A stretch of DNA of 64,000 nucleotides from Sipunculus nudus (Eukaryota > Annelida > Sipuncula > Golfingiida > Sipunculidae), in assembly GCA_026874595.1 (NCBI GenBank), contig CM049309.1, forward strand, positions 72,896,426 to 72,960,425, in the 5' to 3' direction. The stretch's first letter is position 1. Every line of letters begins with the position of its first letter. The notes under the pieces are model-generated. The model did not search any database. It worked only from the letters and a program-made list of their open reading frames with translations, and was not told the origin of the DNA. Both the position numbers and the translations under genes were made by a program. Shown piece by piece: positions 1,391-54,661 of the stretch.

Positions 1391-1536
1391 TTATAACTAG
1401 ACATTTCTTGGCACCGCAGGTACCAGAGTATCCCCAGACATAGTAGGCCCCCCTCCTACAAGAACAGACCCCCATTTTTAGCAGCATATACTGACACTTG
1501 GCATATTTATTGTTTATTCCATCTAACGATCCACAA

Positions 1537-4500
1537 TCTTGTTGAAGATGTTGGTCCTGTGACCTTGATCTTTTTAAAGATGTGTCCTGTGACCTTGACC
1601 TTTGATCTCATAACCCCAAAATCAATTTGGGTCTTGCTTTTCCAATAGGACATATGCAAGTCAAGATTGAAATCTATACATCAATAAAGCAGGAATTATC
1701 ATCCAGAAACTTATTTTTGGACAGATGGCTCCTGTGACCTTCACCTTTGACCTTGTGACCTCAAAATTGATAGTGTTCATCCTCTTGGCAGGAGAACTAT
1801 ATGTGCAAGATGAAAGATATGAGATGAAATGTTTGGCTGAAAATGCATCCACCTCTTTTTAAGATGTGTCCTGTGACCTTGACCTTTGACCTCATGACCC
1901 CAAAATCAATTTTGGTCTTACTTTTCCAATGGGACATATACAAGTCAAGTTTGAAATCCATACATCAATAAAAGCAGGAATTATCATCCAGAAACTAATT
2001 TTTGGACATATGGCTCCTGTGACCTTCATCTTTGACCTTGTGACCTCAAAATTGATAGGGGTCTTCCACTCTTGGCAGGTGAACTATATGTGCAAGAGGA
2101 AAGATCTGAGATGAATTGTTTGGCTGAAAATGCATCCACAATCTTTTTAAAGAGGTTTCCTGTGACCTTGACCTTTTTGACCTCATGACCCCAAAATCAA
2201 TTTGGGTCTTGCTTTTCTAATGGGTCAATAACAAAGCCAAGTTTGAAATCCATACATCAGTAAAAGATGGAATTATCATCCAGAAACTAATTTTTGGACA
2301 GATGGCTCCTGTGACCTTCACCTTTGACCTTGTGACCTCAAAACTGATAGGGTTCTTCCTCTCTTGGCAGGTGAACTATATGTGCAAGATGAAAGACCTG
2401 AGATGAAATGTTTGGCTAAAAATGCATCCACCTCTTTTTTAAGATGTGACCTTGACCTTTGACCACATGACCCCAAAATCAATTTGGGTCTTGCTTTTCC
2501 AATGGGACATATATGTCAAGTTTGAAATCCATACATCAATTAAAGCAGGAATTATCATCCAGAAACTAATTTTTGGATATATGGCTCCTGTGACCTTCAC
2601 CTTTGACCTTGTGACCTCAAAATTGATAGGGGTCTTCCACTCTTGGCAGGTGAACTATATGTGCAAAATGAAAGATCTGAGATGAATTGTATGGCTGAAA
2701 ATGCATCCACAATCTTTTTAAAGATGTGTCCTGTGACCTTGACCTTTGACCTCATGACCCGAAATTCAATTCCGGTTTTGCATTTCCAATGGGTCAAATA
2801 CATGTATAGTTTGAAATCCATACATCAATAAAAGAAGGAATTATCATCCAGAAACTAATTTTTGGACAGATGGCTCCTGTGACCTTCACCTTTGACCTTG
2901 TGACCTCAAAATTGATAGGGGTCTTCCTCTATTGGCAGATGACTTATATGTGCAAGATGAAAGGTCTGAGATGAAATGTTTGGCTGAAAATGCATCCACA
3001 TCTTTTTAAAGATGTGACCTTGACCTTTGACCTCATGACCCCAAAGTCAATTTGGGTCTTGCTTTTCCAATGGGACATATATAAGTCAAGTTTGAAATCC
3101 ATACATCAATAAAAGCAGGAATTATCATCCAGAAACTAATTTTTGGACATATGGCTCCTGTGACCTTCACCTTTGACCTTGTGACCTCAAAATTGATAGG
3201 GGTCTTTTACTCTTGGCAGGTGAACTATATGTGCAAGATGAAAGATCTGAGATGAATCGTTTGGCTGAAAATGCATCCACAATCTTTTTATAGAGGTTTC
3301 CTGTGACCTTGACCTTTGACCTCATGACCCCAAATTCAATTCCGGTCTTGCTTTTCCAATGGGTCAAATACAAGTCAAGTTTGAAATCCAAACATCAATA
3401 AAAGAAGGAATTATCATCCAGAAACTAATTTTTGGACAGATGGCTCCTGTGACCTTCACCTTTGACCTTGTGACCTCAAAATTGATAGGGTTCTTCCTCT
3501 CTTGGCAGGTGAACTATATGTGCAAAATGAAAGATCTGAGATGAAATGTTTGGCTGAAAATGCATCCACATCTTTTAAAGATGTGTCCTGTGACCTTGAC
3601 CTTTGACCTCATGACCCCAAAATCAATTTGGGTCTTGCTTTTCCAATGGGACATATATAAGTCAAGTTTGAAATCCATACATCAATAAAAGCAGGAATTA
3701 TCATCCAGAAACTAATTTTTGGATATATGGCTCCTGTGACCTTCACCATTGACCTTGTGACCTCAAAATTGATAGGGGTCTTCCACTCTTGGCAGGTGAA
3801 CTATATGTGCAAAATGAAAAATCTGAGATGAATTGTATGGCTGAAAATGCATCCACAATCTTTTTAAAGATGTGTCCTGTGACCTTGACCTCATGACCCG
3901 AAATTCAATTCCGGTTTTGCATTTCCAATGGGTCAAATACATGTATAGTTTGAAATCCATACATCAATAAAAGAAGGAATTATCATCCAGAAACTAATTT
4001 TTGGACAGATGGCTCCTGTGACCTTCACCTTTGACCTTGTGACCTCAAAATTGATAGGGGTCATCCTCTATTGGCAGATGACTTATATGTGCAAGATGAA
4101 AGGTCTGAGATGAAATGTTTGGCTGAAAATGCATCCACATCTTTTTAAAGATGTGTCCTGTGACCTTGACCTTTGACCTCATGACCCCAAAATCAATTTG
4201 GGTCTTGCTTTTCCTATGGGACATATATAAGTCAAGTTTGAAATCCATACATCAATAAAAGCAGGAATTATCATCCAGAAACTAATTTTTGGACATATGG
4301 CTCCTGTGACCTTCACCTTTGACCTTGTGACCTCAAAATTGATAGGGGTCTTCCACTCTTGGCAGGTGAACTATATGTGCAAGATGAAAGATCTGAGATG
4401 AATTGTTTGGCTGAAAATGCATCCACAATCTTTTTAAAGAGATTTCCTGTGACCTTGACCTTTGACCTCATGACCCCAAAATCAATTTGGGTCTTGCTTT

Positions 4501-4860
4501 TTCAATGGGACATATATAAGTCAATTTTGAAATCATTACATCAATAAAAGCAGGAATTATCATCCAGAAACTAATTTTTGGACAGATAGCTCCTGTGGCC
4601 TTGACCTTTGACCTTGTGACCCCAAAATTTATATGGATCATCCATTATTGGCAAGTGAGCTATATATTCAAGATGGAAGACCTGGGATGAAAGTTTGGCT
4701 TAAAATGCATCCACAGTATCTTTTAAAATGCCAGTCCAGTGACCTTGACCTTTGACCTCATGACCCTAGAACCTATAGGGTTCTTACTTTAGTGGTGGGC
4801 CATACATAAGTCATGTTTGAAATCCATATGGCTATCAACACTGGAGATATCATAAGAGGT
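1537..4860 (+). repeat. Tandem array, ~285-bp unit, about 11 copies
   Basis: The landmark GACCTCATGACCCC recurs, with minor variants, near 1892, 2180, 2465, 2752, 3031, 3320, 3607, 3887, 4178 and 4467, giving spacings of about 279-292 bp. Each unit carries the same ordered blocks: TGACCTTGACCTTTGACC, GAAATCCATACATCA, ATTATCATCCAGAAACTAA, CTTTGACCTTGTGACCTC and GGCTGAAAATGCATCCAC. There is also a higher-order period of four units. The variants CCGGTT (2772 and 3911), GGATATATGG (2575 and 3721) and GGCAGATGAC (2934 and 4073) recur about 1139-1146 bp apart, so a four-unit block was duplicated more recently than the monomers. Short open frames in the array are artefacts of the period being divisible by three (285 = 3 x 95). 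Confidence 0.93.
4602..4614 (-). promoter_or_regulatory. DR1 nuclear-receptor-type motif (one of nine exact copies in the H array)
   Basis: The plus strand reads TGACCTTTGACCT, the reverse complement of AGGTCAAAGGTCA, which is the consensus DR1 element of RXR/HNF4/COUP-TF-type receptors. Exact copies start at 1880, 2740, 3021, 3310, 3597, 4167, 4456, 4602 and 4746. In most units it overlaps TGACCTTGA (TCAAGGTCA on the other strand), the ERR/FTZ-F1 monomer site. Whether any is bound in vivo cannot be told from sequence. Confidence 0.5.
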
Positions 4861-5357
4861 GTGTGATTTTCACCATATATGGCAATATTCAAGGTCAAGG
4901 CCACTATCATAGGAAAGGTCATGACCCCAATTTAAATAAGCATCATCCCATAACCCATACCTATGTATATGCATAATATAAAAGAAATCTGTCCATTAGT
5001 TTTTGACTTATAATGCTCACAGTGCTGTAAGGTGGCAATTTAGGGGGTATTAAACGGCACGAAAACAAGTAAAGAATAATAGGTGGCGCCACCAGTTTCT
5101 GGAACATGACAACCCTATCCATGATCTTCCATCAACTTGATTTTGGGATAAATCCATGCAAGATTTCTTGAGATATTAAAGAATTTGTGTGATTTTCCCC
5201 AAAATTGGACCTATTCAAGGTCAAGGACACTCTCCTAGTAAAGGTCATGACCTCATTTTAAATAGGCATCGTCCTCTTACCCATATCTATACATATACCA
5301 AGTTTGGTAAAGTTCCGTGAAATATTTTTTGGGTTATCGCGCCAACAAGATTCATAT

Positions 5358-5397
<40 letters not shown>

Positions 5398-5398
5398 G
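5358..5398. repeat. (CGG)n microsatellite
   Basis: About 13 uninterrupted GCG/CGG triplets lie just upstream of the terminal hairpin of element H. This is the position where other elements in the window carry ACGG-rich sequence. It is one of very few strongly GC-rich tracts in the window. Confidence 0.95.
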
Positions 5399-5415
5399 AC
5401 CGGTATGAAAACATA

Positions 5416-5442
5416 GTATCCCCCGACTTTGTCTGGGGATAC
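5416..5442 (+). other. Terminal hairpin of element H
   Basis: GTATCCCC at 5416-5423 pairs with GGGGATAC at 5435-5442. The inner GAC/GTC pair around a TTT loop extends the stem past a single C/T mismatch. The right arm also matches the head sequence at 1428-1440 as an inverted repeat. Confidence 0.85.
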
Positions 5443-5446
5443 AATT

Positions 5447-7579
5447 AAGCCGTGATAGGTAGGTTTGTTAATTCTCTTTGACTGGTGGACTAGTGTTTTG
5501 TGTTTTGCCAAATCTAAATCTGACAGGAAAATGTCTTGAATCTTTTAGCATTGTGACACTGAACTGAAATACCACCAATCTTTTTTTCTGTGACAATAAA
5601 CTGAATGTCATTGTTAATTTGATATATAAAAAAAATCATCAATGCCCAACATCAAAGGTGTCTTTTCTTCTTATCTTCTTGGATATTTTCTGAATTAATA
5701 GAGAAAGAGGAATATGAAAGATAATTTTATCTGAAATTAGGCTTTGATTTACAAAAAAAAAGCAGAGCCAAAATCAAGGGCCACATCTGCTCTGGTCTGA
5801 GTAAAAACAAGGTTTAAGTCACTGAAAGTCCTCTTCAACCTTAAGCTTTACTTTGATATTTTGTTTTATACATAAATAAACAAAGATATTAATTACAAAA
5901 TTAATTTTAAAAATGTCAAGGCAATATTTAGACAAAATTCATTTAATCTTACATTTATAAATATTTTTATGTCCAAACCACAAATTTCCTGCTGAAGATT
6001 AGCTATGCAATATAATTCTGACAAAAAATATTTACTGCTTAAAAAATCCTCATTTGATTAATGTTAGCTTTGATGTCTTTAAGACTAGGTGGATATATAT
6101 GATTCTAGTATCAATTGAATTCTGACAGAATATTTACCTGAAATTCATGCAAAAAAGATGATCCAATTTTGACCATAGAGAAGGTAGACAACCTTCCAAA
6201 CTAATTATTCACTTTACCGTTCTTTACCAATTCAAGACAGTTCTTCAACTGAGCTGTGACATATCTCTTCTAACTCATAACCACTGTGTGACAAATACTC
6301 TACAACTCTTATCTCACTTGTCTAATAGCAGAATGTACTGACCAACTTCTGTAAAACATTCTATGTGACATCACAGTCTTCCTTTACAATCACCTACCAG
6401 AGCATAACATGAAACAGTGGACAATGAAAACAATCAAATGTATAGTTAATATGATATTAATATAATGTGCTACCTTGAGGCTGATCAAATCTTCCTTCAA
6501 CATCCTAAATTATCAGTTGAATTCTCATTTGCCTACAATGTCTAACTTTTAATGACTACTTTATCTGTACAAGGTGAGACACATGACCTTTACAGCACAC
6601 TGAAAAACAGTAGCATGAACTAATGGTCATCAGACAATAGCATACTATACACAGACATAAACTTAATTAACAAATCAAAGCACACTACTGGAGAGGAAGA
6701 AAAAATACATCATAGCTCACAATACAACTATAGAAACACCAAGAGTAAAATACTTCATTTAAGCTGAACATTTAGGTCTGTGTAAAGGAATGTAAGCACA
6801 AACTCTCTTTGGGACTGAGATTTTACCCCAGTCACTTTCATTAAAATATCCATTCTGGACTGAGGTTAAAACAAAATTTCACTGTCATTATTATATTCTA
6901 TAGAATTATTAAAAGTGTATTCAAACAAGGCTTTTTTTATATTTTCCCTTTATAATAAGCAATATTTGACATTATTTCTCACAAGATCCACTGCAGCACC
7001 ATCTATCAGAAATTATGTGAACTTGACCCTTGGGGAAAATGGCAGAAGTCATGTGGGCCTATCACAAAGCAAGAACTGTTAGAATGGATAATATGCTAGT
7101 GATACCACAACACCCAATGGCTGCAGGCACCAGAGCTGAGAATAATGTCAGCTAAAAACAAGCCATGAAAGGCCCAGACATGCCCCAAGGTATCCACCAG
7201 CTAACACTGAGCCTGTCTTGGAATAAACTGGTCTGACTGGAGAAGCAATATCTTCACAACCTGTCATTTTCTGCAGTCAATCTGTGACGACCTTACCAAC
7301 CAAGTGAAGCGATCACCAAAAGCAAACCAAACCTGCCTTGTGTACAAATATGGTGGTTTCAGTATACAGGGGTGTTTTCTTTCAAAGATAGGTTGGTCAT
7401 GGCCTGCTGTTGGCATTGACTATTGAATGAGGATGATGGAAACATGGTGCTAAGAATTATACATTATTTCTTATGCCTTCATGCCTTCTTGAGATTTTAT
7501 TTGCAAAGGGCTAGGAATAATCCTGAAGTCATAACATACGATTGAGATATTGGAGTGAATATCTGATGTTCTATAACAT
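5447..7579. other. AT-rich non-coding stretch
   Basis: No gene or clear element seen. The part near 6990-7360 is somewhat less AT-rich and has few homopolymers, so it could be a conserved non-coding island. Nothing in the sequence proves that. Confidence 0.5.
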
Positions 7580-9556: not shown

Positions 9557-10891
9557 CCTAATTTTTGCTTTTGAGGCACCTATAGGGTTAGATCGAAGCG
9601 CCTTCTGGTCCCAAGTCTAATGCCTTAAACTGCCTACCCGTATTCTGATATCTGATGTCTATCAACTAAACATAATCCCTTGAATCATTCATGAAAAATT
9701 CTCAGGAACAGGCCGTTGTTTATAGCCACTTTTTTATAACTTGTGGGGGGCTATGAAATTTGCAAATGGTGTTTTGGAACAAGTGACCAATCAACTACCA
9801 CACATATGCAACCAACCACTTTTAGTTACATTTTTACATGGTTTCTTGTTTGTCAACATGGTCACATGTACCATATTTACTAACAGCTTAAAACAAGGGA
9901 CCTATGGGTCACTGTGCTCAGCTGACGTTAACCTTGAAGGTAAAAATCTAAAATAATATCAAATGGAGATAAAGTGTAAGAGGTAGAGGTAATAAAGGCC
10001 ATGGTTGGTTTATATGATTGGTTTGTATTGATGAGCAAGAAATTGTTGCAAAAAATATTTTGTGACCTGACCATGTGTTCCTAATGTTGAAACTAAAGCA
10101 TGTGAGCAGTTTGTGAACAAATGATCTGTACTATTACCATGATCATTGGTTGGTTTTTGATTAACTGTTGACATTTCAGTAGTTTACACATTTGTTCAAT
10201 TGAATCTATTTTTTTGTATAATATATATTATTAAATATATATGTATTTTTTTTATGAAATGTATACAGTTGAAATATAGCTAATTAACAACATAAAACAG
10301 GGCAAACAAAGCCTGATCTCAAATTCTGCTGAGGCAGGAAAATAATGAACAAATGTTTGTATTAAATCCTGATTTTTTAATAACATCAATTATTTTCTAA
10401 TTTAAGTTTATATTTCTATACATTTCCAATTTAACATATATATCTGAATATAAAAGTTAATTCATAATTCTCAATTGCATCATCATAAATCTCAATCTTG
10501 TCAGATAACACCACATCATGCATACAAATGTTTATTTATTTTTTACCACAAAAATATATCTTTTAAATCTGCAAAACAATAAATATCTAAAAATAATACT
10601 TGATTTAGATTTCACAATTTTTAATTGTGTCTTAATTTATCCATAATGTGCTTCATATTTTATAATAATTTAAGCATACTGATGGGTTCATTTATATTTG
10701 TTAAAATCATTTAAAAGAAAATTGATTTCTTTAAAAATGCTACATTACACAACATTGCATCTTCTGGATTACACCTTGAATTATTTTTTCAAGGAAAGTT
10801 TTTGCATATCGGAGTGGAAGTAGCATTACAATTAAGGAGATACAGTGAAAACAATAACAATTACTGCATAACACTTGGTGGGTTGGGTTTG

Positions 10892-10892
<1 letters not shown>

Positions 10893-10922
<30 letters not shown>
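10893..10922 (+). repeat. Poly-G tract, 30 bases
   Basis: An uninterrupted run of 30 G, flanked by GGTGGGTTGGGTTTGC upstream. It could form a G-quadruplex on the plus strand. Other plus-strand G runs lie at 13203-13218, 14190-14199, 14329-14339, 26732-26751 and 51949-51971; a C run lies at 35468-35479. Lengths may be affected by sequencing or assembly. Confidence 0.9.
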
Positions 10923-10923
<1 letters not shown>

Positions 10924-11755
10924 GATTGGGGTGGTGATATGAGAATAACTGTACACCTGTCACAGCAGGGGACCTCCCCCAATGACTGTAACAAATCAGA
11001 AACCCTGGCATAGCTGACTTCCAGTGACCTGGAGTGGGACCCTGCATCTGTAATCAAAGCAAGTGACTACAGAAAAAAAATCAATAACTAGCTTAATTTT
11101 CAAGCTTTTATTTTCAAATTTCAGATTTAGACAAACTAAATATTTATGTTTACATGCTGTGAAAATTAAATCAATGGTGTTTACAGGAAAAAAACGTGCC
11201 ATGGTCAAAGTTGGGCAAAATTTAAGGTACTGATTTTTTTTTATGCTAATAACTTAAAAAATTTACAAAATTCAGATCTAATTTTGGGTAAACAATTGAA
11301 TCTTAATTAAACATAGTTATATACTTGAGAAAATAGACTCTAGTTTCAAATTTTTTCATTTTAAGTGAGTTATTATTTTTCCTGATTTTTTACAAAGTCC
11401 ATTATGTTTGGGCCCATAACTTAAAGAATTTATACTTTACAGACTTAATTTCTGGCATGTACATAGGAACTATATAGAGAAATATTTATGGTAAATATTA
11501 GGAAAAACAGATGAGTGGTTTTGATATTAGGCAGTCCTGAAGTGTGAAAACAGGATTTTAATAAAAAATTGAGGTTTTTCTTTAATTTCTCAAAGGAACG
11601 AAGTCGCAAAGACCCAGTTTTCGGCTTGGTAGGAGATCTTGGGGACTTCTAACATTATGCTGAATTTTGGATTCCTAGGTCTTACGGTTTCAAAACGTGC
11701 CACATCTACGGACGGACAGACGGACGGACGGACGACGGACAATGGACCACGACTA

Positions 11756-11786
11756 TAGCTCAGATGACTTATAGTCAGCTGAGCTA
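11756..11786 (+). other. Terminal hairpin of element A1
   Basis: TAGCTCAGATGAC (11756-11768) pairs with GTCAGCTGAGCTA (11774-11786) across a TTATA loop, giving a 13-bp stem with one mismatch, followed at once by an A run. The same hairpin recurs at 15851-15881, 18015-18039 and 36944-36968, and truncated at 52724-52746. Confidence 0.9.
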
Positions 11787-12349
11787 AAAATAACAAGCTT
11801 GCATATGTGTCAACAAAAGTATCTTTCTTAGCAGGAATTATCTCCAGTTCATTTATACGTGTGCAGAGCAAGGCAGGAACCAGAGATAAGACAGGTGAAC
11901 ACATAGCTTTAACCATTAGATTACATCCTAACCCACAGAGTCAGAGTTATTTTTGACATTTCACTTAACACTTTTATTTTATTTAATACTGGCAGAATTC
12001 AATTATGTGTTAAGCAGATGTAGGAAATCAGCAATCACTTGTGAATTATATATACCACAACTATACCTAAGAAGTCAAGAAGTTTATGCGGTGATACAAG
12101 AAGTTTGGTGTATTCTGGAGAGCTTACTCAAGAAGTTAAAATGATTTCACTCTGCAGATTAGATTCAATTTTTTGGTTGTGCCGTTAACTTCTTATTACA
12201 CCTCTCCCATGTGCAGGATTTTATGGGGAAAAGTATAATATCTTAAAAGGAAAAAGAAACGAACTGTCTGAAAAAAAGCATGGAAAAATAGAAATCAATG
12301 CCAAAAGAAATTATGATATTTGCAATTTAGTAGTTATTTAAAACATGGT

Positions 12350-12640: not shown

Positions 12641-12980
12641 GCAGTTTTATGTTTTATCTCTTAGGTATTTGGTTCTTCTGAGCATACCTTTATGCACAAC
12701 ATTCTGAACAGATTTGTTGAAATTTGAGAGAGGGGTTGAATACCACCCAAGGAACATGTTTTTGATTCAGTGGATTCAAACAAATTGTTGCATACATCTA
12801 GGTATAATAAAATAAAGCTATTCATTTGCATAAGGGGGCAGCTTTGTTCTGGGGGTGAGTTGGTTTGTGAAAAGTTGGATGAGAATCCTTCTGGTGGGGG
12901 TGCTGCAGATAATAAATTTTACAAGTTTTCTTTACTTTAGACATATTCTTTTATTTCAAAACTTTTGAAGCAAAAGAAAA

Positions 12981-13256: not shown

Positions 13257-13259
13257 ATT

Positions 13260-15425: not shown

Positions 15426-15886
15426 AAACAAGAGACCCTTAGGTCACGGCTCACAGCTGCCCAGAATTTTGTAATATTTTTGCAAATGCAAAATATACTT
15501 ATTTTTATTGTTATCTTTTATATACATATTAACATTTGAAAACATTTACAAATTCCCTTTTATTGACTTAATCTTGCAGGTACAGAAAAATAAGGAGAAA
15601 TATTTATGCCAAAGAGGAACAAAACAGTTCTTGTGATTTTGATATTAACCAGTCTTGAAGTGCAACAATAGGTTTTCAATGAAAATTTTTTTTTCCTAAA
15701 TCTTTCAAAAGAAATAAGTCAAAGTGACCCAGTGTCAGGTTTGCTAGGAGATCTTAGGGAAATCTAACTGTATATTGAATTTTGGATACACAGGTCAAAA
15801 GGTTTCAAAACAAGCCCTGCTAACCCCTGGCTGGCCAACAGACTATGATATTGCTCAGATGACTTGTAGTCAGCTGAGCTATAAAT
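15426..15886 (+). mobile_element. Element A2: short family A member
   Basis: The head AAACAAGAGACCCTTAGGTC is followed by GGCTCACAGCTG, a damaged form of the A-family subterminal sequence. The second half (about 15640-15840) matches the end block of A1, with landmarks GATATTA, AGT(C/T)(C/T)TGAAGTG, GGAGATCTT, TGAATTTTGGAT and GGTTTCAAAAC. The tail is the standard hairpin: TTGCTCAGATGAC, loop TTGTA, GTCAGCTGAGCTA. It is about 460 bp, so most of the body seen in A1 is missing. Confidence 0.72.
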
Positions 15887-17626: not shown

Positions 17627-18044
17627 AAACTAGGGACCCAGGGGTCTCAACGCTCAGCTGTATTTGTCTATAAGAATATTTTGAAGAAATATTTAAGAAT
17701 GACAGTCCTGTGACAAAACTAGTCATGTTCAATATTCAAGGCAAGTTTTATGACAATCCATGCATTAATTATCAAGTTACTGGAGGTTTTGTATCAAATT
17801 TTTGATTATTCTGGAGGGTACTTACAAGCCCCATAGCTCAGAGGATATAGGTCACAGTTACCTAAATTCAGGTATCCAAGAAGATTTTTTATGAACCTTC
17901 ATAGGCTTACAGTTACAGGCTTCCAGGTTGAGCAGTTACGATTTGTGCCCTGCTAACTGAAAACCGGATGGCCAGACAGCCGGACAGACGACAGACACAG
18001 CGCCATACTTATACCTCAGATGACTTCAAGTCAGCTGAGCTAAA
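17627..18044 (+). mobile_element. Element B1: ~420-bp element with A-type ends and a different body
   Basis: The head AAACTAGGGACCCAGGGGTC is followed by GCTCAGCTG at 17652-17660, the reverse complement of CAGCTGAGC at 18032-18040. The terminal hairpin is CTCAGATGAC, loop TTCAA, GTCAGCTGAG, then CTAAAAAAAAA. The body (CATGCATTAATTATCAA, GGAGGTTTTGTATCAAATTT, GATTTGTGCCCTGCTAAC) matches B2 at 36650-36900 but not A1 or A2. So B shares ends with A while the interior differs. Confidence 0.75.
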
Positions 18045-31230: not shown

Positions 31231-31936
31231 TGTAAATATTCTAACAAAATGCAAATCAGCAGAAACCATGTTTATTCAGCTCTATATATCTGATAAGAAC
31301 AATTAACTTTAACTTTTCTCTGTTTTGGCTAAATATGGTTAACTTCATACAAACCATTAACAGCACAATTAATGAAAGCAACAAAACAAGATTAATATCT
31401 ACAGGTATCTCATATATTTTTCAATTTAGAAATACCAATTTTTTATAATTATTTGTGTGTGAAAACAGCAGGTCTATTAATTTTTTTTCAAAATCAAATT
31501 TATCTATTTTTATAAAAACAAATTCCAGGCAATTTTGAATCATTAAAGTCAGCAGTCAGCTATTCACGTTCACTTTTCTATAAAATTGATTAGTTCTCAC
31601 TTACTCTGCGTATAAATTAACAAATTCTTCAGATAATTCTTGTTAGGAAAGTTCTTATAATGCCCCTGTGGTGGATATATGAGCTTGTTTATCCAGAAGC
31701 TGTTAGTAAACACAGCCATGCTGAAAAACACAAACAGGGCCTACAGGCCTAATGCGAACCTGTGCAAAGTTTAGGAGTATGAAAGGAGGTTTATTTTAAA
31801 ATTTAATATTGATCCTCTTAAGTCCTGCATATCTACCTTAGTCATTATGTTTTCAGCAAAATGGACATTTCACACCTGCAAGTTTCAGACTAGGACATTT
31901 TAAAACCAGAATATGGGTAGTCGACAAGCGACTATG

Positions 31937-33071
31937 TGTATCCGCAGAAATCAGAGTGAGACAGGTGAAGTGAGGCATGGATTAAGTGGCAAGGGGAATA
32001 GAGTGAGGTGTGTTGCATATTAGCATGGATGTCTGCAGCTTAAACAGGAATGTAGGTGGTGCCACCTGTCATAAAATTGTCCAGGATGTATAAACCTGCA
32101 AAATTTCAGGTGGAGAAGTCAAACCACTGCTGAGATATGAATGATTTTATCCCAAGGCAGATGAACAGATGGATGCTGTGCAAAAATGGTTGCATGTGGC
32201 GCCACCAGTTTTGCCTATGATGAAGAGCTATGTGAGATCTATACACAAGCAAAATTTTGGCCAAATCGGTCAAACTGTTCCCGAGATATGAGCTTGGATG
32301 TCTGCAGAGTAAATGTGAATGTAGGTGGCGCCACCTGTCATAAAATCAAAGAAAGCTGTCCAGGATGTATAAACCTGCAAAATTTCAGGTGGAAAAGTTA
32401 AACCATTGCTGAGATATGAGTAATTTTATCCCAAGGCAGATGAACAGATGGACACTGTGCATAAATGGTTGCAGGTGGCGCCACCAGCTTTGCCTATGAT
32501 GAAGAGCTATGTGAGATCTATATACATGCAAAATTTTAGCCCAATCGGTCAAACGGTTCCCAAGATATGATCTTGGATGTCTGCAGAGTAAAGGTGAATG
32601 TAGGTGGCGCCACCTGTCATAAAATCGACAAAGCTGTCCAGGATATATAAACCTGCAAAATTTCAGGTGGAAAAGTCAACCACTGCTGAGATAAGAGTGA
32701 TATTATCCCAAGGCAGATGAACAGATGGATGCTGTGCAAAAATGGTTGCAGGTGGCGCCACCATTTTTAGTGTATGTTATAAAGCTATCAAAGGGCTACA
32801 TTTGTGCAAAATTTTTAGCCTGATCCGTCAAACAGTTCCCGAGATATGTGGGTTTATGTGTGGAAACAGACGCACAAATGGACGCTGGGCAGAGAGGAAA
32901 GGTCAAAGGTCAACCAAAAATGAGGGCACAACAGTTCACATGACCGATCATAATTCAAAATTTAAAAAAATTTTGCCCAGTGGTTATTGAGGAGTTCTCT
33001 GGAAACCTATGCGGCGATTCGGCGTCTGACTGAAAACAGAGTATACGTAAAACTCTGTTTTGGCGGATACA
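31937..33071 (+). mobile_element. Element F1, nested in G1; 278-bp tandem repeat
   Basis: TGTATCCGC at 31937-31945 with CAGAGT at 31952 mirrors ACTCTGTTTT...GCGGATACA at 33052-33071. Just before the end, AAAACAGAGT (33033-33042) and ACTCTGTTTT (33052-33061) form a 10-bp hairpin. The body repeats with a period of about 278 bp (palindromes at 32324 and 32603; 32195, 32474 and 32751). Each unit is two half-units, both carrying a form of GGTGGCGCCACC. A perfect AGGTCAAAGGTCA lies at 32900-32912. An inverted relative is at 55787-56790. Confidence 0.7.
32324..32335. repeat. Recurring 12-bp palindrome GGTGGCGCCACC
   Basis: Perfect copies start at 5082, 32324, 32474, 32603, 32751, 34835, 36624, 39163, 53488, 56085 and 56234. 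One-base variants include 32195, and 33198 and 56513 (ending CCAA). The surrounding sequence differs between several of these copies, so the motif is more conserved than its context. Confidence 0.9.
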
Positions 33072-35326
33072 ATGATTGTAGCTGACACCACCAGTCTTAT
33101 ATACAACAAAGAGATATATAAATATTCCCAATGTCAGACTGATATGTCAAACTCCTCCTGTGAAATAAGCAGGGACATAGACTGTGCAAAAATTATTGTA
33201 GGTGGCGCCAACAGTCTTGTACACTATAAAGCTACCTGATATGTATAAACATGCCCAATTTTAGGCTGATGTATCAAATTCCTCTGTAGAAATAAGCAGG
33301 CGCATACAGGTGGCACCACCTGTTTTGTAAAAGAGAATACCATCAAAGATGCACAGACATGTCAAAATATCAGTCCAATACATCAAACTTTCCCAGAGTT
33401 TGATGCACTGGGCTGACAAGGCTTAGGTGAATAAGGAAGTTGCCCCGGAGTGACCTGTGACAAATTGCTGCCTCAAGCTACTGCACTGAGTGAACTCATG
33501 ACCTGCACCTGGCTAGACTGAGTGAACTTTTGACCTGTACCTGGCTGCACTGAGTGATCTCTTGACCTGTTGCATAATCTGACACAGTTGACAGTCTGCC
33601 AAAGCTATAAATAGATTCAAGCTGAACTTTGGTGCCAAATATAATACAGTGAGCAGTCTGCCAAAGCTATAAATAGAATGCAGCAACTGCACTGAGTGAA
33701 CTCTTGACCTATACCTGGCTGCACTTTTTCCAATCCTGGCACTGTGCCAAAACTATTTATAGAGCTGACATCATCTTGGCTAAAGGCCAACATCAAGGCA
33801 CTGGCAATCTGTCAATGGTAAACCAAGTGCTGCCATCTGAACACAGAAGTGGTCCCTACTTGAAATAACTTTGAAATTTATTTTCCCAATACAAAATGCT
33901 TTTCAGCTGAGTTTTTATAAAAAAAACAGGAATACATGTAAAAAATTATTACGGATGCATACTGAATGCAAAATTAAAATACAGATATATCTCATTGATG
34001 GAAAATTATTGAATTAAGTTGAGTAGGGATACCAATAATTTATATCCACGTACAGTTGTCTTTATACAGCCACAGAGAGGTGAATATCCATGATTGTAAC
34101 ATTGCCTGGTACGATGAATAACTTAAATCATAAATCTAAATTTTTTAAAAGCTTTTAAAAAAACTTTTATTGTCAATATCAACCAAAGATAACCAGAAAT
34201 CTAAATGTCTAGTGGCATGATGTAATAGATGCTGATAATCTGGTGCCAGGCTAGATGTAACAGCATAGCACAGCTAACATATATGGTAAAATGACTCAAT
34301 TCAATCTCCATAAAATCATTCATGTGGAACCATTAATGACAATTATTATAAGAATTTTTGTAGGGATTATTCTTGTAAAATATTTAACAAACTGGCTTCA
34401 GTGGCATCAGTCGAAAAACGTTTCGCAGGTTTATAACTCATATAGGAAGATACAGCAAACTTGCTAAGTTCAGCTTCCTGTAACTCAGCCAAAAAGCACT
34501 GAACCACAACCATTTGAACAAACTTGAATTATCAACATCTGAGAAAAATTAATGTGTGAGATTAAAGAATTTGGCCCAGTGGTTTTTGAGAAGAAGATCT
34601 TTGTAGCCACTGAGCTAAAATGGGCTGTTATGGCATATGACTAAATTCAGCTTCCCATAACTTAGCCAAAAGTCAATGAAAAGAGACCATTTGAACAAAC
34701 TTCAGAAAACACTACCCTAGGATCATTTCTGTGCAATAGTAAACATTTTGGCCATATGGTTTCAGAGAAGAAGTTTTTTGTAGCCCTCAGTGTGATACAG
34801 GCACTGATGACCCCGTACAAAAAAGGCCGATGCAGGTGGCGCCACCAATACCTCAATTCAGATATGACCTATGTGACCAACATTGGCATAAATTTTGGTG
34901 ATGATAGCTCCAGCCATTTCTGAGATTTAAATTTTAATATGCTTTTTTTCACAGTTAACAAAGTTAAACCTCCTGTAACTCAGCCAAAAATCTCCAAACT
35001 GGAACCATTCGAACAAACTTGAGAAAGATTGTTCCATGGATCATATCTGTGAAATATTGGACAATTTGGCTGGACAATTTCGGAGAAGAAGATTTTTAAA
35101 GGTTTTTTAGCTTTTTCCTTATAAAATCTAAGAAAATACAGTAAGAAAAAAAAATAAACAAAATCCAATATAGTTTTTTCGATGACTGATTATTTGCAAA
35201 AAATTTGGTGATGCTAGCTCCTGCCGTTTTTGAGATAGCTATGGTTAACGTACAGACGATGCACAACGTACGACGCACGACAGACGACACCGCACCATCG
35301 CATAAGCTCACAGGTTCGCTAAAAAA

Positions 35327-35985: not shown

Positions 35986-38900
35986 AAAACAAGGCCTTAA
36001 GGCCTAATGCGAACCTGTGCATTGGGAAATAAACCAGGTATAATGCTTCAATGCTGGACCATTACCTCTCATGTATATGAACAATGCAGGTACTAAACAT
36101 TTTGAATAAGAAACAATTACACAAACATCACTGCTGAAATTCTGGCATGGGTGCACACAACACAACTAGGACCCATGGGTCTCAACACTCAGTTGAATTT
36201 GTCTATAAGGATATTTTGAAAGAAATTTTTCAGAATGATAGTCCTGTGACCGTAACCAATGACCTTGTGACCAAAAAATCTCAGAACTTAATATCCTTGA
36301 ACTTGCAGCATTAGGATTATTGTAACAATCTTTTAAAAAGTGACCTTGACCTATGACCAGATAACCTCAAATTCTACAGGTTTCCTCACTTTAGGCAAGT
36401 AAGCCATGTGTGAACATTGGAAAGTTCAGGATGAAAAGTTTGATTTACAGTGCATCCACAATCTTTTTAAAGATGTGGCTCCTGTGACCTTCAACTTGGA
36501 TCTCTGGACCCTGGTAATCAAAATGAATTTACTTATGTGGTTGGTCATTATTAAATCAAGTTTGAAGCAAGTTTATTTTTAGTAAATAAATAGAAAAATA
36601 TTTGTTAAAATAGAAAAAATACCGGTGGCGCCACCACGTTTCAGGAACTGACAAAACTAGTCATGGTCAATATTCAAGGCAAGATTCATGACAAACCATG
36701 CATTAATTATCAATATATTGGAGGTTTTGTATCAAATTTCTTACTATTCTGGGGGGTACTTTCAAGCCCTGTAGCTCAAAGGATATAGGTTGCAGTGACA
36801 TAATTTCAGGTTTCCAAGGAGATTTTTTATTGACCTCCCTGGATTAATACTTAGAAGTTTCTAGGACCAGCTGTTACGATTTGTGCCCTGCTAACGGTGG
36901 CCGGATATCCGTATGGACGACCGACAAAGCGCCATTCCTACACCTCAGTTGACTTACAGTCAGCTGAGCTAAAAATGATTGTAGCTGGCACCACCAGTCT
37001 TGTATACAACGAAGCTATCAGAGATATATACATATGCCCAAGTTCAGACTGATATATCAAACCCCTCCTGAGAAATAAGCAGGGACAAACACTGTGCAAA
37101 AATTATTGTAGGTGGCACCACCAGTCTTGTATAAGACAAAGCTATTCGATAGGTATAAATATGCCCAATTTCAGGACGCTATATCAAATTCCTCTATAGA
37201 AATAAGCAGGCACTAAAGTCACACACTGTGCAAAAGTCATTGTAGGTAGTGACACCTGACTTGTGAACGAGAAACCCATCAAAGACGCATAGACAGGTCA
37301 AATTATCAGGCCAATACATCAAACTTACCTTAAGTCTGATGCATGGGGCTGACCACGCTTAGGTGAGAAAGGCAGTTGCCCCGAGTGAACTGTGACAAAT
37401 TTACTTGCTCAGGCTACTGCACTGAGTGAACTCATGACCTGCACCTGGCCAGATTGGGTAAACTTTTGACCTGTACCTGGCTGCACTGAGTGAACTCTTG
37501 ACCTGTTGCCTAATCTGATACAGTTGGCAGTCTGCCAAAGCTATAAATAGATTGGCTCTACATGCAGCCCTGAGAGGCATGACACCCATGAGGTGATCAC
37601 ATGGTGCCCATGAGGTGTTCACATGTCACCCATGAGGGGATCACATGCCTTGTGCTTGGCTGCACTGACTGAACTCTTGACCTATATCTGGCTGCACTGA
37701 ATGAACTCTTGATCTGTTGCCAAATCTGAAACAGTTGGCAGTTTCTTAACCTATTTAAATATACAGAAACAATCTTAGCCTGTTGGCAAATCTGTTTACA
37801 CATACTGAAAGACTTTGGCTAAAATGTTTTTTTTCAAGCTGACATATTCATAACCTTTTTATCAAAATATCTAGAATAATAAAAGATGCAGTTTTTTTCA
37901 TAAATAAGCTGAATCCTACAACATTTGATAAATGACATATTATTGCATAAAATCTGGGGATGGTAGTTCTGAGAAAGTATGGGTTAATGTACAGATGACC
38001 AATGACCCCCGTACAAAAAAAGGTCAATGCAGGTGACCACCAATACCTGAATTCCATATATGGTTCATGTGACCAACACTGGCAGAAAATTTGGTGATAA
38101 TAGCTCCGACCGTTTCTGAGATTGTCATTTTAGTATGCTTTTTCGGACAGATGACTAGGTTCAACTTCCTGTAATTCCACAAAAATTCACTGAACTTGAA
38201 CCATTTGAACAAACTTGAGAGAGATGATATAAAAGATTATTTCTGTGAAATATTGAACAAACTGGCTTGACTGTTTCGGAGGAGAAGATTTTTTAAGGTT
38301 TTTTAGCTTTTTCTCTATAAAATCTGAGAAAATGCAACTTTTTTCAGTAGCTAATTTTTTGCATTAAATTTCATGATGCTAGTTCCAGTCAATCCAATAG
38401 TATGAGTTAACGTATACCTGTGATTGTAAACATTGCCTGGCATGAGGAATATCTAAAATCATAAATCTACATTATTTAAAAGTTTTTAAAAAACATTCTT
38501 GTCAATATTAACCAAAGATAACCTGAAATCTAAACGTCTGGAGGCATGATGTAACGGATGCTGATAAACTGGTTCCAGGCTAGATGTATCTGCTTCACAC
38601 AGCTAACATATATGGTAAAATGACTCAATTCAATCTTTATTATTCAGCTAAAATTCATTCTTCGGAACCATAAAAGACAATTAATTATTATAAGAATTAT
38701 TCAGGGGATTATTCTTGTAAAATATTAAACAAATTGGCCTCAGTGGCGTCAGTCAAAAAATGTTTTGCAGGTTTATAACTCATATGGGAAAATAAAGCAA
38801 AATGGCTAAATTAAGCTTCCCATAACTCAGCCAAAAAGCACTGAACCAAAACCATTTGAATTATCAACATCTAAGGATAATTAATGTATGAGATTTATGA

Positions 38901-39630
38901 ATTTGTGGTTTTTGAGAAGAAGATCTTTGTAGCCACTGAGCTAAAATGGGCTGTTATGGCATATGACTAAATTCAGCTTCCCATAACTCAGCCAAAAGTC
39001 ACTGAACTGAGACCATTTGAACAAACTTCAGAAAGCACTACCCTAGGACCATTTCTGTGCGATATTAAACAATTTGGCTATATGGTTTCAGAGAAGAAGT
39101 TTTTTGTAGCTGTCAGTATGATATGGGCACTGATGACCCCCGTACAAAAAAAGGCTAATGCAGGTGGCGCCACCAATACCTCAATTTCAGATCTGACTCA
39201 TGTGACCAACATTAGCATAAAATTTGATGATGATAGCTCCAGCCGTTTCTAAGATTGTAATTTTAGTATGCTTTTTTGGACAGATGATTAAGTTCAACTA
39301 TCTGTAACTCGGCCAAAAATCACCAAACTTAAACCATTGGAACAAACATGAGAGAGATTGTTCTAGGGATCATATCTATGAAATATTGGACAATTTGGCT
39401 GAACATTTTCGGAGAAGAAGATTTTTGAAGCTTTTTTAGCTTTTCCCTATAAAATCTAAGAAAATGCAGTTAGCCAAAAAATAAGCAAAATCCAATAGAG
39501 TTTTTTAGATGACTTATTTTTTGCAGAAAATTTTGTGATGCTAACTCTTGCCGTTTTTAAGATAGTATAGGTTAACGTACAGATGCCGGACGTCGCCACA
39601 CCATCGCATAAGCTCACAGGTTCGCTAATA
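35986..39630 (+). mobile_element. Element G2: 3.6-kb element containing nested B2
   Basis: The head AAAACAAGGCC is followed by the palindrome GGCCTTAAGGCC (35993-36004) and GCGAACCTGTG at 36009-36019, the exact reverse complement of CACAGGTTCGC at 39615-39625. The body from 36973 to 39628 parallels 33072-35322 of G1, including AGCTATAAATAGAT, GGCATGATGTAA(C/T), TAAATTCAGCTTCCCATAAC and the palindrome at 39163. Flanks differ from G1, so these are two insertions, or a duplication limited to the element. Confidence 0.75.
36164..36973 (+). mobile_element. Element B2, nested in G2
   Basis: The head AACTAGGACCCATGGGTC is followed by CTCAGTTGA at 36188-36196. The terminal hairpin is CTCAGTTGAC (36944-36953), loop TTACA, GTCAGCTGAG (36959-36968), then CTAAAAA. 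The body half from about 36640 matches B1. The first half has AGGTCA-type runs (GTGACCTTGACCTATGACC near 36340) and GGTGGCGCCACC at 36624. The head and the left hairpin arm share the same C-to-T change relative to the other copies. Confidence 0.75.
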
Positions 39631-45840: not shown

Positions 45841-45841
45841 G

Positions 45842-46255: not shown

Positions 46256-46261
46256 TTCTGA

Positions 46262-49757: not shown

Positions 49758-49795
49758 AACAAGGGACCAATGGGTCACGGAGCCCAGCTGTTATA
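49758..49795 (+). mobile_element. Isolated family A head (A4)
   Basis: GAACAAGGGACCAATGGGTC followed by GAGCCCAGCTG is an A-type head. The next matching tail is that of A3, so this is a truncated copy or the outer part of a nested pair. Confidence 0.5.
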
Positions 49796-50920: not shown

Positions 50921-52747
50921 AAACAGAGGACCCATGGGTCACGACGCCCAGCTTAAGTTCGAAATTTATGCAAATGCAAAATATGAAAAATATTCTATTG
51001 TAATTTTTTTCATTTATATAAGCATATGAGAAGCTAAGAGGAAAGGGCCCTCCTACTTGGTTTTAGTAAAGTTCTCAATATATGATTGCAAACTAATACT
51101 CTGACAAGACTGTCATGAAGAAAAACAGTAAAAGTTTTGAGATACTGTGATGCATATGAAAAATTTACAGATGGACAGGCAAGTGGACAGAATGGACTAA
51201 TACCTTTATTTCACTTTCAAGGGAATAATGCATTTAAGTTTATATATAAGCCTATTTTTTTAGCATATCCACTTTTTTCATTAATAGTTTTTATCTGATT
51301 CATTTTTTTTTATTTACAAGTGTTATAAATTTGTAATATAAAAACTGAAAATATAAGTTAAAATATTAGAGTTCTAAGTTGCAATCATTATATATCCAGA
51401 TTGTAGCTCATATTGGGTGATATTATGCATACACATATATTTTATTATTTTTAAATCAAATGTTTAAACTGAATGTAAAAGAAAATAATGCCACAACATG
51501 ACATCTACAAAATTATTCCTTGAATAATTATTAAAAAGTTTTGCACATTGAAGTTTTCAGTACATGCTTAATTTTATTCACCAAAATAAAATAAAAGATT
51601 CAGTAAATTTGATAAAATAAAAACATCTTTTCAAATAAAGTATACACACTGTTGGTTGAATGAGGGACGAACAATATCATTATGCTAATTACAATCTCAG
51701 CTATAATTAATTACTGGAATTAATAGTCAATTTCACACCTGGTGAAGTTTTACTCTTCTAAAGTAAAGCATTACTTATCTGATGAACATCCACACTTTCA
51801 TAGCAATACATCACTGTGTGGACACAATTAAATGTGCACTTTAATCATTGTAACCCTGGTGGTACAATACAAAATCTAAAATGTAGCATGTCCAAGAATA
51901 AAATAAAATACAGAAAATTATAACATTCATCTAGTTTATGCACCAGCTGGGGGGGGGGGGGGGGGGGGGGGTGAGTGCAGGGCACAGGGGAAGCCTGCTA
52001 GGGGTGGGTTACATAATGCAGGAGAAGGCTGTACTACTAGGTGGGCCAGATGTAAACAACACTTGACATGGTGTATGAAAACTTGAATAAAAGCTACTCT
52101 TTTCAAACAATTCCTTTGAAATTTTAAAAGATTAAATCCTTATGTATATATGCTGTGAAAATTAAATCAACAGTGCTTACAGGGAAAAAAACATGCCACT
52201 GCCAAAGTTGGACAAAATTTAAGGTATTGATTTTTTTATTTATGCTAATAACTTGAAAAATTTGCAAAATTCAGATATAATTTTGGGTAAACAATTGAAT
52301 CTTGATTGAATAAAGTTATATTCCTGAAAAAAAAGTCTCCAGCTTCAGCAATTCTCATGTTAAGTGAGCAAATATACTTCCTGATTTTTAAAAAATTGCA
52401 TTATATTTGGGCCTATAACTTCAAAATAAAACCCAATACTGACCTAATTTTTGGTATGTGCACAAAAATGTACGGAAGAATATGAATACTAAATATGATC
52501 AAAAACAGATCGGTGGTTTGGATATTAGGCAGCCTTGAAGTGTAACAATGGCTTTTTTATGGAAAACGGAGGTTTTCCCTGAAGTTCTAATGACCCAATT
52601 TTCGGTATGGTAGGAGATTTTGGGGACATCTAATGGTATGCAGAATTTTGGATTCGTAGGTCAAACGGTTTTAAAACGTGCCCTGTTAACGAACGGACGG
52701 ACAACGGACAAAGGACCACAACTATAGCTCAGATGACTTATAAGTCA
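50921..52747 (+). mobile_element. Element A3: family A member with truncated tail
   Basis: The head AAACAGAGGACCCATGGGTC is followed by GACGCCCAGCTTAAG. A G run lies 1.03 kb downstream at 51949-51971, the same relative position as in A1 (1.00 kb). The 52148-52720 block matches A1 at 11155-11750, for example ATGCTAATAACTT and TTTTGGGTAAACAATTGAAT. The hairpin stops part-way: TAGCTCAGATGAC, TTATA, AGTCA, then unrelated sequence. The right arm is therefore lost. Confidence 0.7.
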
Positions 52748-52790
52748 AAATTTTTAATTGGGAAATAGATACAAATTAATTTAAGTACAA

Positions 52791-54661
52791 AACTAGATGT
52801 GTCGGAACGACACGAATGCCCCCGCCTGGGGCAAATTAGAAACATTTGTTAAATTTTGTAAAATTTTTTAAGTTCAGGAAGTGTTGTTTGGTCAAAAGTA
52901 GGTCAACAAGGGCAAAATGCAAACTCGATCTGTAAAGGGTCATTATCAAGCAACACACCAAAAATCAGGCCAGTATCTGCAGGCATTGTGAAAAAAAAGT
53001 CCATATATGTGCATTTTTCATGAAAATTTCTGTCTTTCATGAAATTTTCTATGTTTAGGATCTGTCATATGGTGAAAAATAGGTTAACTGGGACGAAACG
53101 CGAACTCGATCTGTAAGTGGTCATTATGTGCCCACAGACCAAACATTAGGCCAGTATCTGTAAGCATTGTATTGCGAAACTAGAATATTAGCAAAAGTTG
53201 ATAATCATTTATAAATTTAAATTGGAGAGGTATATACCATGTTTCATAACAATCCACCAAATGCTTCCTGAGAAATAAGCTCCTGAGTTTTTTTCTATAC
53301 TAAGCTCTGTGATATTGAAAAGTAGGTCAAGATCACCCATCTTTGAACTTGACCAAGATTTTATAAATATAATGCAATAGCACTGAAGAAATGAAGTTCC
53401 TGTGTTGAATACCTTTAGAGATATCCTGCACAAAAGGCCAAAATTGAAAAAATCCGATAAAATTTCATTAAAAAATCAGAAATTGCAGGTGGCGCCACCA
53501 AAATTGTGCAGCACATACAGACCATCAGTCCCAATGATCATAGTAAGTTTTGTGAAATTCCTCACAATGGTTCCTGAGATATAAACTTCTGAGTGTTTTT
53601 CTATAATCAGCTCTAAAATGTAGAAAAATGGGTCAAGGTCACCCATCTTCGAACTTGACCGAGATTTTATCAATATACATCTTCACTGATGAAATAAAAT
53701 TCCAACGGTGAATCCTTTTAGAGATATCCCGCTCACAAGGTAAAAGTTAACAGATGCGGAACGGACGGACGGACAGACAGATGGACAGACGGACAGCTTG
53801 GGTGACGACAATAGCCCATCAGCCTATAAGCTGAGGGCTAAAAACGGCTGTACATGTGTATTTGTCATGAAAATTTCTATTTTTCATGAATTTTTCTAAG
53901 TTTAGGAGCCGTAAAACGGTCAAAAGTAGGTCAACCGGGACGAAACGCGAACTCGATCTGTAACTGGTCATTATCTGCCCACATACTAAAAATCAGGCCA
54001 ATATCTGCAGGCATTGCGAAAAAAGTCCATACATGTGTATTTGTCAATAAAATTTCTATTTTTCATGAAGTTTTCTAAGTTTAGGAGCCGTAAAACGGTC
54101 AAAGTAGGTCAACCGGGACGAAACGCGAACTTGATCTGTAACTGGTCATTATCTGCCCACACACCAAAAATCAGGCCAATATCTGCAGGCATTGCGAAAA
54201 AAAGTCCGTACATGTGTATTTGTCAATAAAATTTCTATTTTTCATGAAATTTTCTAAGTTTAGGAGCCGTAAAACGGTCAAAAGTAGGTCAACCGGGACG
54301 AAACGCGAACTCAATCTGTAACTGGTAATTATCTGCCCACACACCAAAAATCAGGCCAATATCTGCAGGCATTGCAAAAAAAAGTCCGTACATGTGTATT
54401 TGTCATGAAAATTTCTATTTTTCATGAAATTTTCTAAGTTTAGGAGCCGTATAACGGTCAAAAGTAGGTCATCCGGGATGAAACGCGAACTCAATCTGTA
54501 ACTGGTCATTATCTGCCCACACACCAAAAATCAGGCCAATAACTGCAGGCATTGCGAAAAAAAGTCCGTACAACTGTTTGATTTCGGAATGACGGTATGA
54601 CGGAATGACGGACTTGGGTAAAACTATATGCCCTGGCCACTTTGTGGCGGGGGCATAAAAA
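52791..54661 (+). mobile_element. Element C: 180-bp tandem core, interrupted by D
   Basis: The head AACTAGAT is followed by a perfect hairpin GTGTCG-GAA-CGACAC (52799-52813) and ATGCCCCCGCC (52816-52826). The last is the exact reverse complement of GGCGGGGGCAT at 54646-54656. The terminal hairpin is TATGCCCTGGCCAC (54627-54640), loop TTT, GTGGCGGGGGCATA (54644-54657), then AAAA. The tandem unit is marked by GAAACGCGAACTCGATCTG at about 53095, 53942, 54120, 54300 and 54480. The 178-180 bp spacing is interrupted between 53.17 and 53.85 kb, where D lies. Confidence 0.78.
53174..53845 (+). mobile_element. Element D nested in C
   Basis: AAACTAGAATATT at about 53174 begins sequence foreign to C. 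It holds two diverged units of roughly 310 bp (landmarks AAGATCACCCATCTT / AAGGTCACCCATCTT and TTTAGAGATATCC), GGTGGCGCCACC at 53488, then (ACGG)n at 53758-53795. The terminal hairpin TAGCCCATCAGC (53812-53823), loop CTATAA, GCTGAGGGCTA (53830-53840) has one bulged A and is followed by AAAA. C sequence resumes with TACATGTGTATTTGTCATG. The insertion site was an A run in C (GCGAAAAAA). Confidence 0.75.

Follow-up and report, generated by a model that had tools for sequence, protein, structure and literature searches.

Non-autonomous Helentrons of several families in Sipunculus nudus carry a common end plan, and two of the families have autonomous partners

The closest described systems are HINE-Mo and DINE-1 with their Helentrons (PMC4067079), Cg_HINE of Crassostrea gigas (PMC7492417) and the Helitron-like sequences of a C. 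gigas assembly (PMC7992393). HINE-Mo, DINE-1 and Helentrons have subterminal inverted repeats (subTIRs) and a palindrome ~8-35 bp from the 3' end, leave a T-rich target unmodified, and have a Rep/helicase/endonuclease partner with the same ends (PMC4067079). Cg_HINE has an 11-12 bp 5' subTIR with a complementary inverted repeat, a microsatellite (GTCY in several), central satellite-like repeats and a palindrome after the 3' subTIR; one genome has several families, some related and some independent, and 0/10 autonomous elements could be related to them (PMC7492417). The bivalve elements pearl, MgE and DTC84 are short with central tandem repeats, and pearl has been re-classed as a non-autonomous Helentron (PMC7492417). 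The C. gigas assembly sequences have a CTAG 3' end, with subTIRs in 257/751, together with 5' TC and insertion between A and T, and no autonomous elements were detected among them (PMC7992393). Here we focused on a 64,000-nt stretch of the Sipunculus nudus genome (hereafter, the window; C4:72,896,426-72,960,425), and searched the 1.43 Gb genome (153 contigs) for the repeated elements it contains. Families H, A, C, G and D carry the published HINE/Helentron plan, on the minus strand of the window.

The architecture has already been described in those three papers, and the end plan published for Cg_HINE and for HINE-Mo and DINE-1 recurs here in each of its features. The likeness to pearl, MgE and DTC84 is by description, and that to Cg_HINE by plan. 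The differences are that families A and C are related to autonomous elements, unlike Cg_HINE, that a 5' inverted repeat is present, as in DINE-1, and that the 5' TC and A-T insertion of the C. gigas assembly sequences are not shared. In the literature searched, including the accessible parts of PMC7492417, PMC7992393 and PMC10294476, no partners of bivalve HINEs are given. New here are the partners for two families, an autonomous source of a central repeat and a lead on strand domains.

An earlier note on this DNA had proposed that elements with unrelated bodies share one end architecture, from a head with a subterminal sequence to a matching tail hairpin and an A run. The shared architecture stands with its orientation reversed: because of the direction of Rep/helicase open reading frames (ORFs) in the genome, the former head is the 3' end and the former tail the 5' end. 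The 5' end (the former tail hairpin) thus consists of the subTIR and its inverted repeat, then a microsatellite-like stretch, and the 3' end of the subTIR, a short palindrome that had been overlooked, and CT(A/T)G-TT. All four subterminal/hairpin pairs proposed earlier were located in their places, at 1428 and 5430 in H, 9916 and 11774 in copy A1 of family A, 52816 and 54646 in C, and 31754/36009 and 35309/39615 in G. The subTIR pairs are exact in H, A1, C and G, in keeping with the ~11-15 bp subterminal inverted repeats of Helentrons. The inverted repeat complementary to the 5' subTIR forms hairpins in A, C, D and H, as in DINE-1 and Cg_HINE; the left arm of the G hairpin is decayed in both window copies (judged by eye) and H is without an A run, both as previously remarked.

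A palindrome lies between subTIR and 3' terminus in H, A, C, G and D, as in Helentrons. It reads GACCCATGGGTC in A (imperfect in A1), GTGTCG-GAA-CGACAC in C, GGCCTACAGGCC or GGCCTTAAGGCC in G, TGGCACC-GCA-GGTACCA in H and TCAGC-TTC-TGCTGA in D, the last taken from genomic locus L036 rather than from the window copy; a variant A-type 3' end with the palindrome GGCCCATGGGCC occurs at Rep loci. The terminal CT(A/T)GTT is common to the five families (the window copy G1 reads CCTGTT), reading CTAG in C, D and H and CTTG in A and G. The 5' ends read AGCTC, ATGCC and GTATC, and the canonical Helitron combination of 5' TC and 3' CTRR was not found. Seventeen H 3' ends, chosen from the best 40 and hence biased to close matches, begin at the identical base (17/17), and their flanks vary. 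At 18 H 5' ends from the first 100 places listed, read in the direction of the earlier note, AA comes next in 18/18, T after AA in 17/18, and the fifth base is A in 18/18.

To compare the pairing with chance, we scanned the window for AAC(A/T)AG-like heads followed after 10-45 nt by an 11-mer, with the reverse complement of this 11-mer closing a hairpin 0.3-6 kb further downstream. Five matches were obtained, all on one strand (H, A1 twice, C and one unrelated), against a mean of 0.83 and a maximum of 5 in 300 dinucleotide shuffles, 16/300 of which had at least three. A looser 10-mer scan gave 41 matches vs a mean of 12.75 in 40 shuffles, an excess inflated by internal tandem repeats. Taken alone, the window statistic is moderate. 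Across the genome, the pattern GGACGGACGGAC-N25-55-TAAAAA had 5,799 matches, overlapping ones included, vs 11 for the reversed control. Exact matches, each with a reversed control of 0, numbered 14,000 for the A 3' end (both strands, variant and mismatched ends excluded), 4,509 for the AACAAGGCC variant of the G 3' end, 1,571 for the H 5' hairpin, 1,560 for the C 3' end and 979 for the D 3' end. The 149-bp 3' end of G1 was matched by 40/40 places scored, of 1,598 candidates, and the best 40 H 3' ends are 99-100% identical. This genome-wide check is the decisive one: for each family, exact copies run into the hundreds or thousands. Given these copies, the single base at which H ends begin, the points at which homology between autonomous copies stops and the empty sites (both below), the end architecture is real genome-wide beyond doubt.

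Three paralogous empty sites, a comparison also proposed beforehand, show clean insertion. The D site is occupied in L036, CAATCTTTT / element / AAAAAGTGACC, and empty in the window near 36334, CAATCTTTTAAAAAGTGACC. For H, three copies were tried, and in only one did the 4 kb retrieved reach the head; the site of this copy (head in L074, tail in L054, C1:137.7-140.3 kb) reads CTAAGGAT / element / AATTAAT, and the empty site at window 38878/38879 reads CTAAGGATAATTAAT. The site of the autonomous C element introduced below reads GCTTATTTTT / element / TGCTATCTGCATT when occupied and GCTTATTTTTTGGCTAACTGCATT at window 39477 when empty. A target-site duplication is absent at 3/3 sites, and each insertion lies in T-rich DNA, as described for Helentrons and HINEs; each empty site leaves an ambiguity of terminal Ts, as described in PMC4067079. 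At the D site (CAATCTTTT/AAAAAGTGACC) five As are retained beside the insert. From the empty sites, including these five As, the A run is target DNA; the view that it forms the element's tail is ruled out by the D site.

To seek autonomous partners, we searched the genome with the profile PF14214 (Helitron_like_N), which gave 143 matches, and examined 24 loci hand-picked for long ORFs and diversity: 5 with most of the ORF, 3 at the offset predicted from the first match, and the remaining 16 in pieces of 3 kb taken downstream of the Rep domain, at 3.7-6.7 kb from it. End signatures were scored by mismatch count, and Rep/helicase ORFs were taken as they stand, neither mended nor joined. An A-type 3' end follows the Rep ORF, in the same orientation, at 13/24 loci (the GGCCCATGGGCC variant included; one of the 13, L023, has 6/33 mismatches in the end), and a C-type 3' end lies on the ORF strand at 2/24. 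The background density is ~1 per 100 kb for exact A ends and 1 per 900 kb for exact C ends; an A-type end also occurs on the opposite strand in two of the pieces. Five A-type loci (C17, C5, C10, L028 and L033) are 97.4-98.4% identical over ~1.5 kb, and their homology stops within two bases of CACTTGTT(T), then diverges. The two C-type loci are 98.7% identical over 689 bp, up to CTAGTTT. At C17, two copies of TTTTTA(A)GCTCAGCTGAC-hairpin-GTCCGTC precede the open frame, by 6.8 and 6.1 kb. Both ends were found for A, at C17, and for C, at C3, as expected of autonomous partners.

The autonomous C element spans 12.0 kb (4870-16875 of the reverse complement of C3:41,764,366-41,783,366) and contains, in order, the 5' hairpin, a GTCC stretch, ~180-bp repeats, a Rep ORF of 964 aa, a helicase ORF of 877 aa and the 3' end; its flanks map to a single point of the window, 39477. 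The window C copy is 90.4% identical to it over 826 bp on the 5' side, 180-bp repeats included, and 88% over 58 bp on the 3' side; overlapping alignments indicate that the autonomous copy holds several of these repeats. Judged from this alignment, the window C copy is a deletion derivative of the 12-kb Rep/helicase element. The 3' end of the element at C7 matches A1 over 178 bp (77.5%; window 10014-10188) and over the final 35 bp of A1 (91%).

The ORFs of the A lineage at C17 and C13 encode a tegument-like cysteine protease, DUF6570, Helitron_like_N, PIF1 and an endonuclease match, the last PF14529 above cut-off in C13 and PF03372 below cut-off in C17; the shorter C7 ORF has DUF6570, Helitron_like_N and PIF1 and no endonuclease. 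A further lineage (L005/L007; C11:50.38 Mb and C4:36.17 Mb, 83% identical to each other) has frames of >2,200 aa with Rep, OTU, PIF1 and a clear PF03372 endonuclease. The endonuclease domain of Helentrons is thus present in C13 and in the C11/C4 lineage. Protein identity is 62% between C17 and the A1 partner at C7, 30-37% in aligned segments between the A lineage and C, and 41% in the Rep segment between C and the C11/C4 lineage. Three side observations were made at these loci. The A-lineage ORFs of L010/L009 begin with the herpes-tegument-like cysteine protease domain PF04843. The reverse complement of L014 has two A-type 3' ends 45 nt apart (1897-1974), the first of which stands where the 3' end of a Rep locus was predicted, as from an adjacent insertion or a bypassed end. 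At C7:48525832-48588283, three Rep matches ~30 kb apart, each with an 839-aa frame, one of them with an internal stop, are perhaps a tandem duplication.

Taken together, the elements are very probably non-autonomous Helentrons (HINEs) lying on the minus strand, each family copying the two ends used by its own autonomous Helentron. The end plan, the clean insertion into T-rich DNA and the Rep plus PIF1-helicase elements with matching ends for A and C are observed, and the resemblance to HINE/DINE-1 (Helentron-derived) elements noted earlier agrees with ends, empty sites and Rep/helicase partners alike. Several results weigh against this reading. The autonomous copies anticipated in the earlier note were found for A and C, and no G, H or D ends were found at the 24 Rep loci (of 143 matches); at 9/24, the C11/C4 lineage included, no recognised A, C, D, G or H end was seen. 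The autonomous C ORFs are separate, with no endonuclease domain in the 780/877 aa scanned; the own 3' end of C13, which has the sole A-lineage endonuclease above cut-off, was not found; and C17 has two 5' ends upstream, which allow more than one length for that element. On the separate question of chance, a strict window scan for head, perfect palindrome and 9-mer gave 4 matches vs a shuffled mean of 3.93 (200 shuffles), so the palindrome alone is not above chance in that scan; the hairpin accompanied 1 of the 4 (shuffled mean 0.07, maximum 1). The shuffled controls named in the earlier note accordingly give moderate backing to the 11-mer with its hairpin and none to the palindrome. The 3' ends of the C11/C4 lineage were looked for and not found, and among the best 40 copies of the G (149-bp) and H (148-bp) 3' end queries none was seen by eye beside a Rep match. 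An inverted-repeat listing at two loci gave AT repeats only, or nothing, and no ORF of 150 aa was found in L017 or L012, two pieces from upstream.

The earlier note had attributed the common plan to one trans-acting machinery that mobilises all families, reading folded shape and head-tail complementarity rather than sequence. The identical plan with unrelated subTIRs would suit such a machinery, as would the shared CT(A/T)GTT (CCTGTT in G1) and the lack of a dedicated partner for G, H and D at the 24 loci. We consider it improbable, since the autonomous elements of A and of C each bear exactly that family's ends, with proteins only ~30-37% identical across lineages, and since end sequence is kept within each family over hundreds to thousands of copies, which recognition of shape alone does not need. 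A simpler account of the observations is that the end plan descends from a common ancestor and each family has end sequences of its own; G, H and D, with no partner at the 24 Rep loci, may nonetheless share one machinery. Canonical Helitrons, with 5' TC, 3' CTRR and insertion between A and T, are a very unlikely identity and were rejected on the ends: a hairpin near the 3' end, the CTAG of C, D and H and an H target readable as A^TT recall them, but 5' TC is missing, the termini of A and G read CTTG, subTIRs are present together with an inverted repeat at the 5' end, and the Rep ORFs carry an endonuclease domain. That these are terminal-inverted-repeat miniature elements (MITEs) of a cut-and-paste transposon, the older reading of pearl and DINE-1, has next to no likelihood despite the short inverted complementarity between ends. 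The lack of a target duplication at the three empty sites refutes it for C, D and H, and asymmetric ends and partners that encode Rep and helicase speak against it.

For the HINE reading, what is seen are the cognate Rep/helicase elements, the plan and the insertion; how the elements would move is inferred from what is established for HUH replication enzymes. The family's Rep would nick at the 5' subTIR, and the strand would be peeled off and displaced by the helicase; the 3' subTIR and palindrome would mark the point at which to stop and cut, and a single-stranded or circular copy would enter T-rich DNA. The 5' subTIR may pair with the neighbouring inverted repeat or with the complement of the 3' subTIR, and head-tail complementarity would stem from the same Rep-binding or folding unit at both ends. 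Interiors would differ because the copies arose by deletion, contain tandem repeats and nested HINEs, and then spread as composites. Five H 5' hairpins stand in series at C1:1.41 Mb, 2.6-2.8 kb apart on one strand; of these five, three fall within L072 (C1:1405000-1414999), where no exact H 3' end core occurs. In tandem Helitron copies, inner members are reported to be truncated at the 3' end (PMC7492417).

Nesting goes beyond the earlier note, with D inside C, the 5' end of a further family, E, inside G1, and an A copy inside G2 (Table 1). The E and G1 composite recurs in L035 (C13), and the pair of G2 head and A head in L036 (C1). For the E copy inside G1 no 3' end of its own was identified, nor a 5' end matching the extra A 3' end.

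Table 1 Helentron-related features of the window (64,000 nt; positions are those of the window)
Feature	Position	Strand	Remarks
HINE family H, complete	1395..5442	-	3' terminus at 1395; subTIR 1428-1440
H 5' end	hairpin 5416-5442; microsatellite 5358-5397	-	GCG microsatellite
H central tandem repeats	1568-4828	-	289 bp
HINE family A, copy A1	9892..11784	-	5' hairpin 11758-11784, GGAC stretch adjoining
A1 3' end		-	imperfect palindrome GACCTATGGGTC; subTIR GCTCAGCTGAC
HINE family A, short copy	15427..15879	-	family B of the earlier note
HINE family A, short copy	17628..18040	-	
HINE family G, copy G1	31733..35319	-	3' palindrome GGCCTACAGGCC; 5' hairpin left arm decayed
Family E 5' end (to ~33073) and 279-bp repeats	32017..33073	-	inside G1
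HINE family G, copy G2	35988..39625	-	
HINE family A copy	36164..36969	-	inside G2
Unoccupied site	36330..36340	.	counterpart in L036 holds family D element
Unoccupied site in G2	38872..38884	.	between 38878 and 38879; L074/L054 counterpart holds H
Unoccupied site in G2	39470..39480	.	counterpart C3:41,764,366-41,783,366 holds autonomous C
Extra family A 3' end	49758..49790	-	absent from the earlier note
HINE family A copy	50922..52747	-	decayed 5' hairpin
HINE family C	52791..54656	-	subTIR ATGCCCCCGCC; 180-bp repeats 53850-54572
HINE family D, nested in C	53178..53839	-	5' hairpin ~53814-53838; decayed 3' end AACTAGAATATTAGCAAAAGTTGATA at 53178

A separate terminal-inverted-repeat element lies at 7575-9563, with the ends CCGTAAAAGTCGTTGCAGAAGTCGC and 183 exact left ends genome-wide.

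The orientation of the elements was also profiled. Of the 13 copies of H, A, C, D, E and G counted in the window, 12 are minus and one, E at 55774, is plus; in this count hairpins also score, worse, on the opposite strand. On C1, the first 41 places of A 3' ends among the matches listed are all minus, as are 33/33 listed elements in the first 1.0 Mb after merging. We pooled the C1 places of A, C, D, G, H and two unassigned tails, taking the first 100 places of each listing and reducing overlapping matches of the GGACGGACGGAC pattern to one. The pool had 565 entries, which fell to 462 once neighbours of one family and strand within 20 kb of each other had been merged. The pool excludes C2 and most places beyond 61 Mb for D and another listing, and five places of that other listing which repeat the A list were dropped; the idea of strand domains had already been formed when the G and D lists were obtained. 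Pairs of different families were scored for strand agreement against a null of strand rotation within each family (2000 runs).

At 20-100 kb, 67/71 pairs agree in 0-1.2 Mb (null 0.94), a region that is uninformative because nearly all elements are minus. Agreement is 72/93 in 1.2-5.3 Mb (null 0.58, 0/2000), 85/118 in 5.3-15.6 Mb (null 0.50, 0/2000) and 46/69 in 15.6-61 Mb (null 0.52, 28/2000). At 100-200 kb the first three regions give 74/77, 79/103 and 85/128, and 15.6-61 Mb gives 58/98, which is not significant (181/2000); at 200-400 kb the last three give 135/196, 149/240 and 93/169. The common orientation of different families on C1 thus extends over ~0.1-0.4 Mb and is weaker past 15.6 Mb. 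Agreement is lost at 0.4-0.8 Mb in 1.2-15.6 Mb, yet 208/347 pairs agree in 15.6-61 Mb, and at 0.8-1.6 Mb the 1.2-5.3 Mb region shows disagreement (144/458 agree). Pairs with G at 20-100 kb in 1.2-15.6 Mb agree with A in 42/59, C in 17/23, H in 15/18 and D in 19/22. A smaller set, without G and with fewer D and A, is not significant beyond 18.4 Mb (2/7 merged pairs at 2-30 kb, 21/34 at 2-100 kb), and C vs H alone is flat there (9/19, 9/16). For a control repeat, a k-mer survey gave no clear non-Helentron family; the terminal-inverted-repeat element mentioned above has 7 of its 15 C1 places in the range used, with 8/21 neighbour pairs agreeing, a number too small for a control. A chromosome-end test of fork direction (left minus, right plus) fits 4/6 informative ends, the right end of C1 by majority only, and fails at the left ends of C2 and C4; 2/8 pieces had no recognised element.

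Composites of the sizes seen cannot explain pairs >20 kb apart; segmental duplication or gene strand could. As a tentative alternative, which we hold to be possible and somewhat doubtful, Helentron insertions may form strand domains over a few hundred kb, across unrelated families and ages, because a single-stranded intermediate enters one strand of the moving fork, or the opened transcribed strand. The literature searched, in its accessible parts, has no report of strand domains for Helitrons or Helentrons. In bacteria, IS200/IS605 elements transpose as single strands and their orientation follows replication direction (PMC5371812); similar behaviour is suspected here, but those elements are bacterial and use other enzymes, and the analogy is a lead only.

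Two HINE families are thus tied to their parents by ends and a shared body, and C also by a pair of occupied and empty sites. The autonomous C element itself carries the tandem repeats that its HINE has spread, which bears on the origin of satellite-like central repeats. Rep proteins with matched, divergent ends form a natural series for learning what a Helentron Rep recognises. If the strand domains hold, HINEs would be a readout of replication or transcription direction; if the fork is responsible, the thousands of standing HINEs would record, like a fossil map, the direction of forks across an animal genome, as a eukaryotic counterpart of IS200/IS605.

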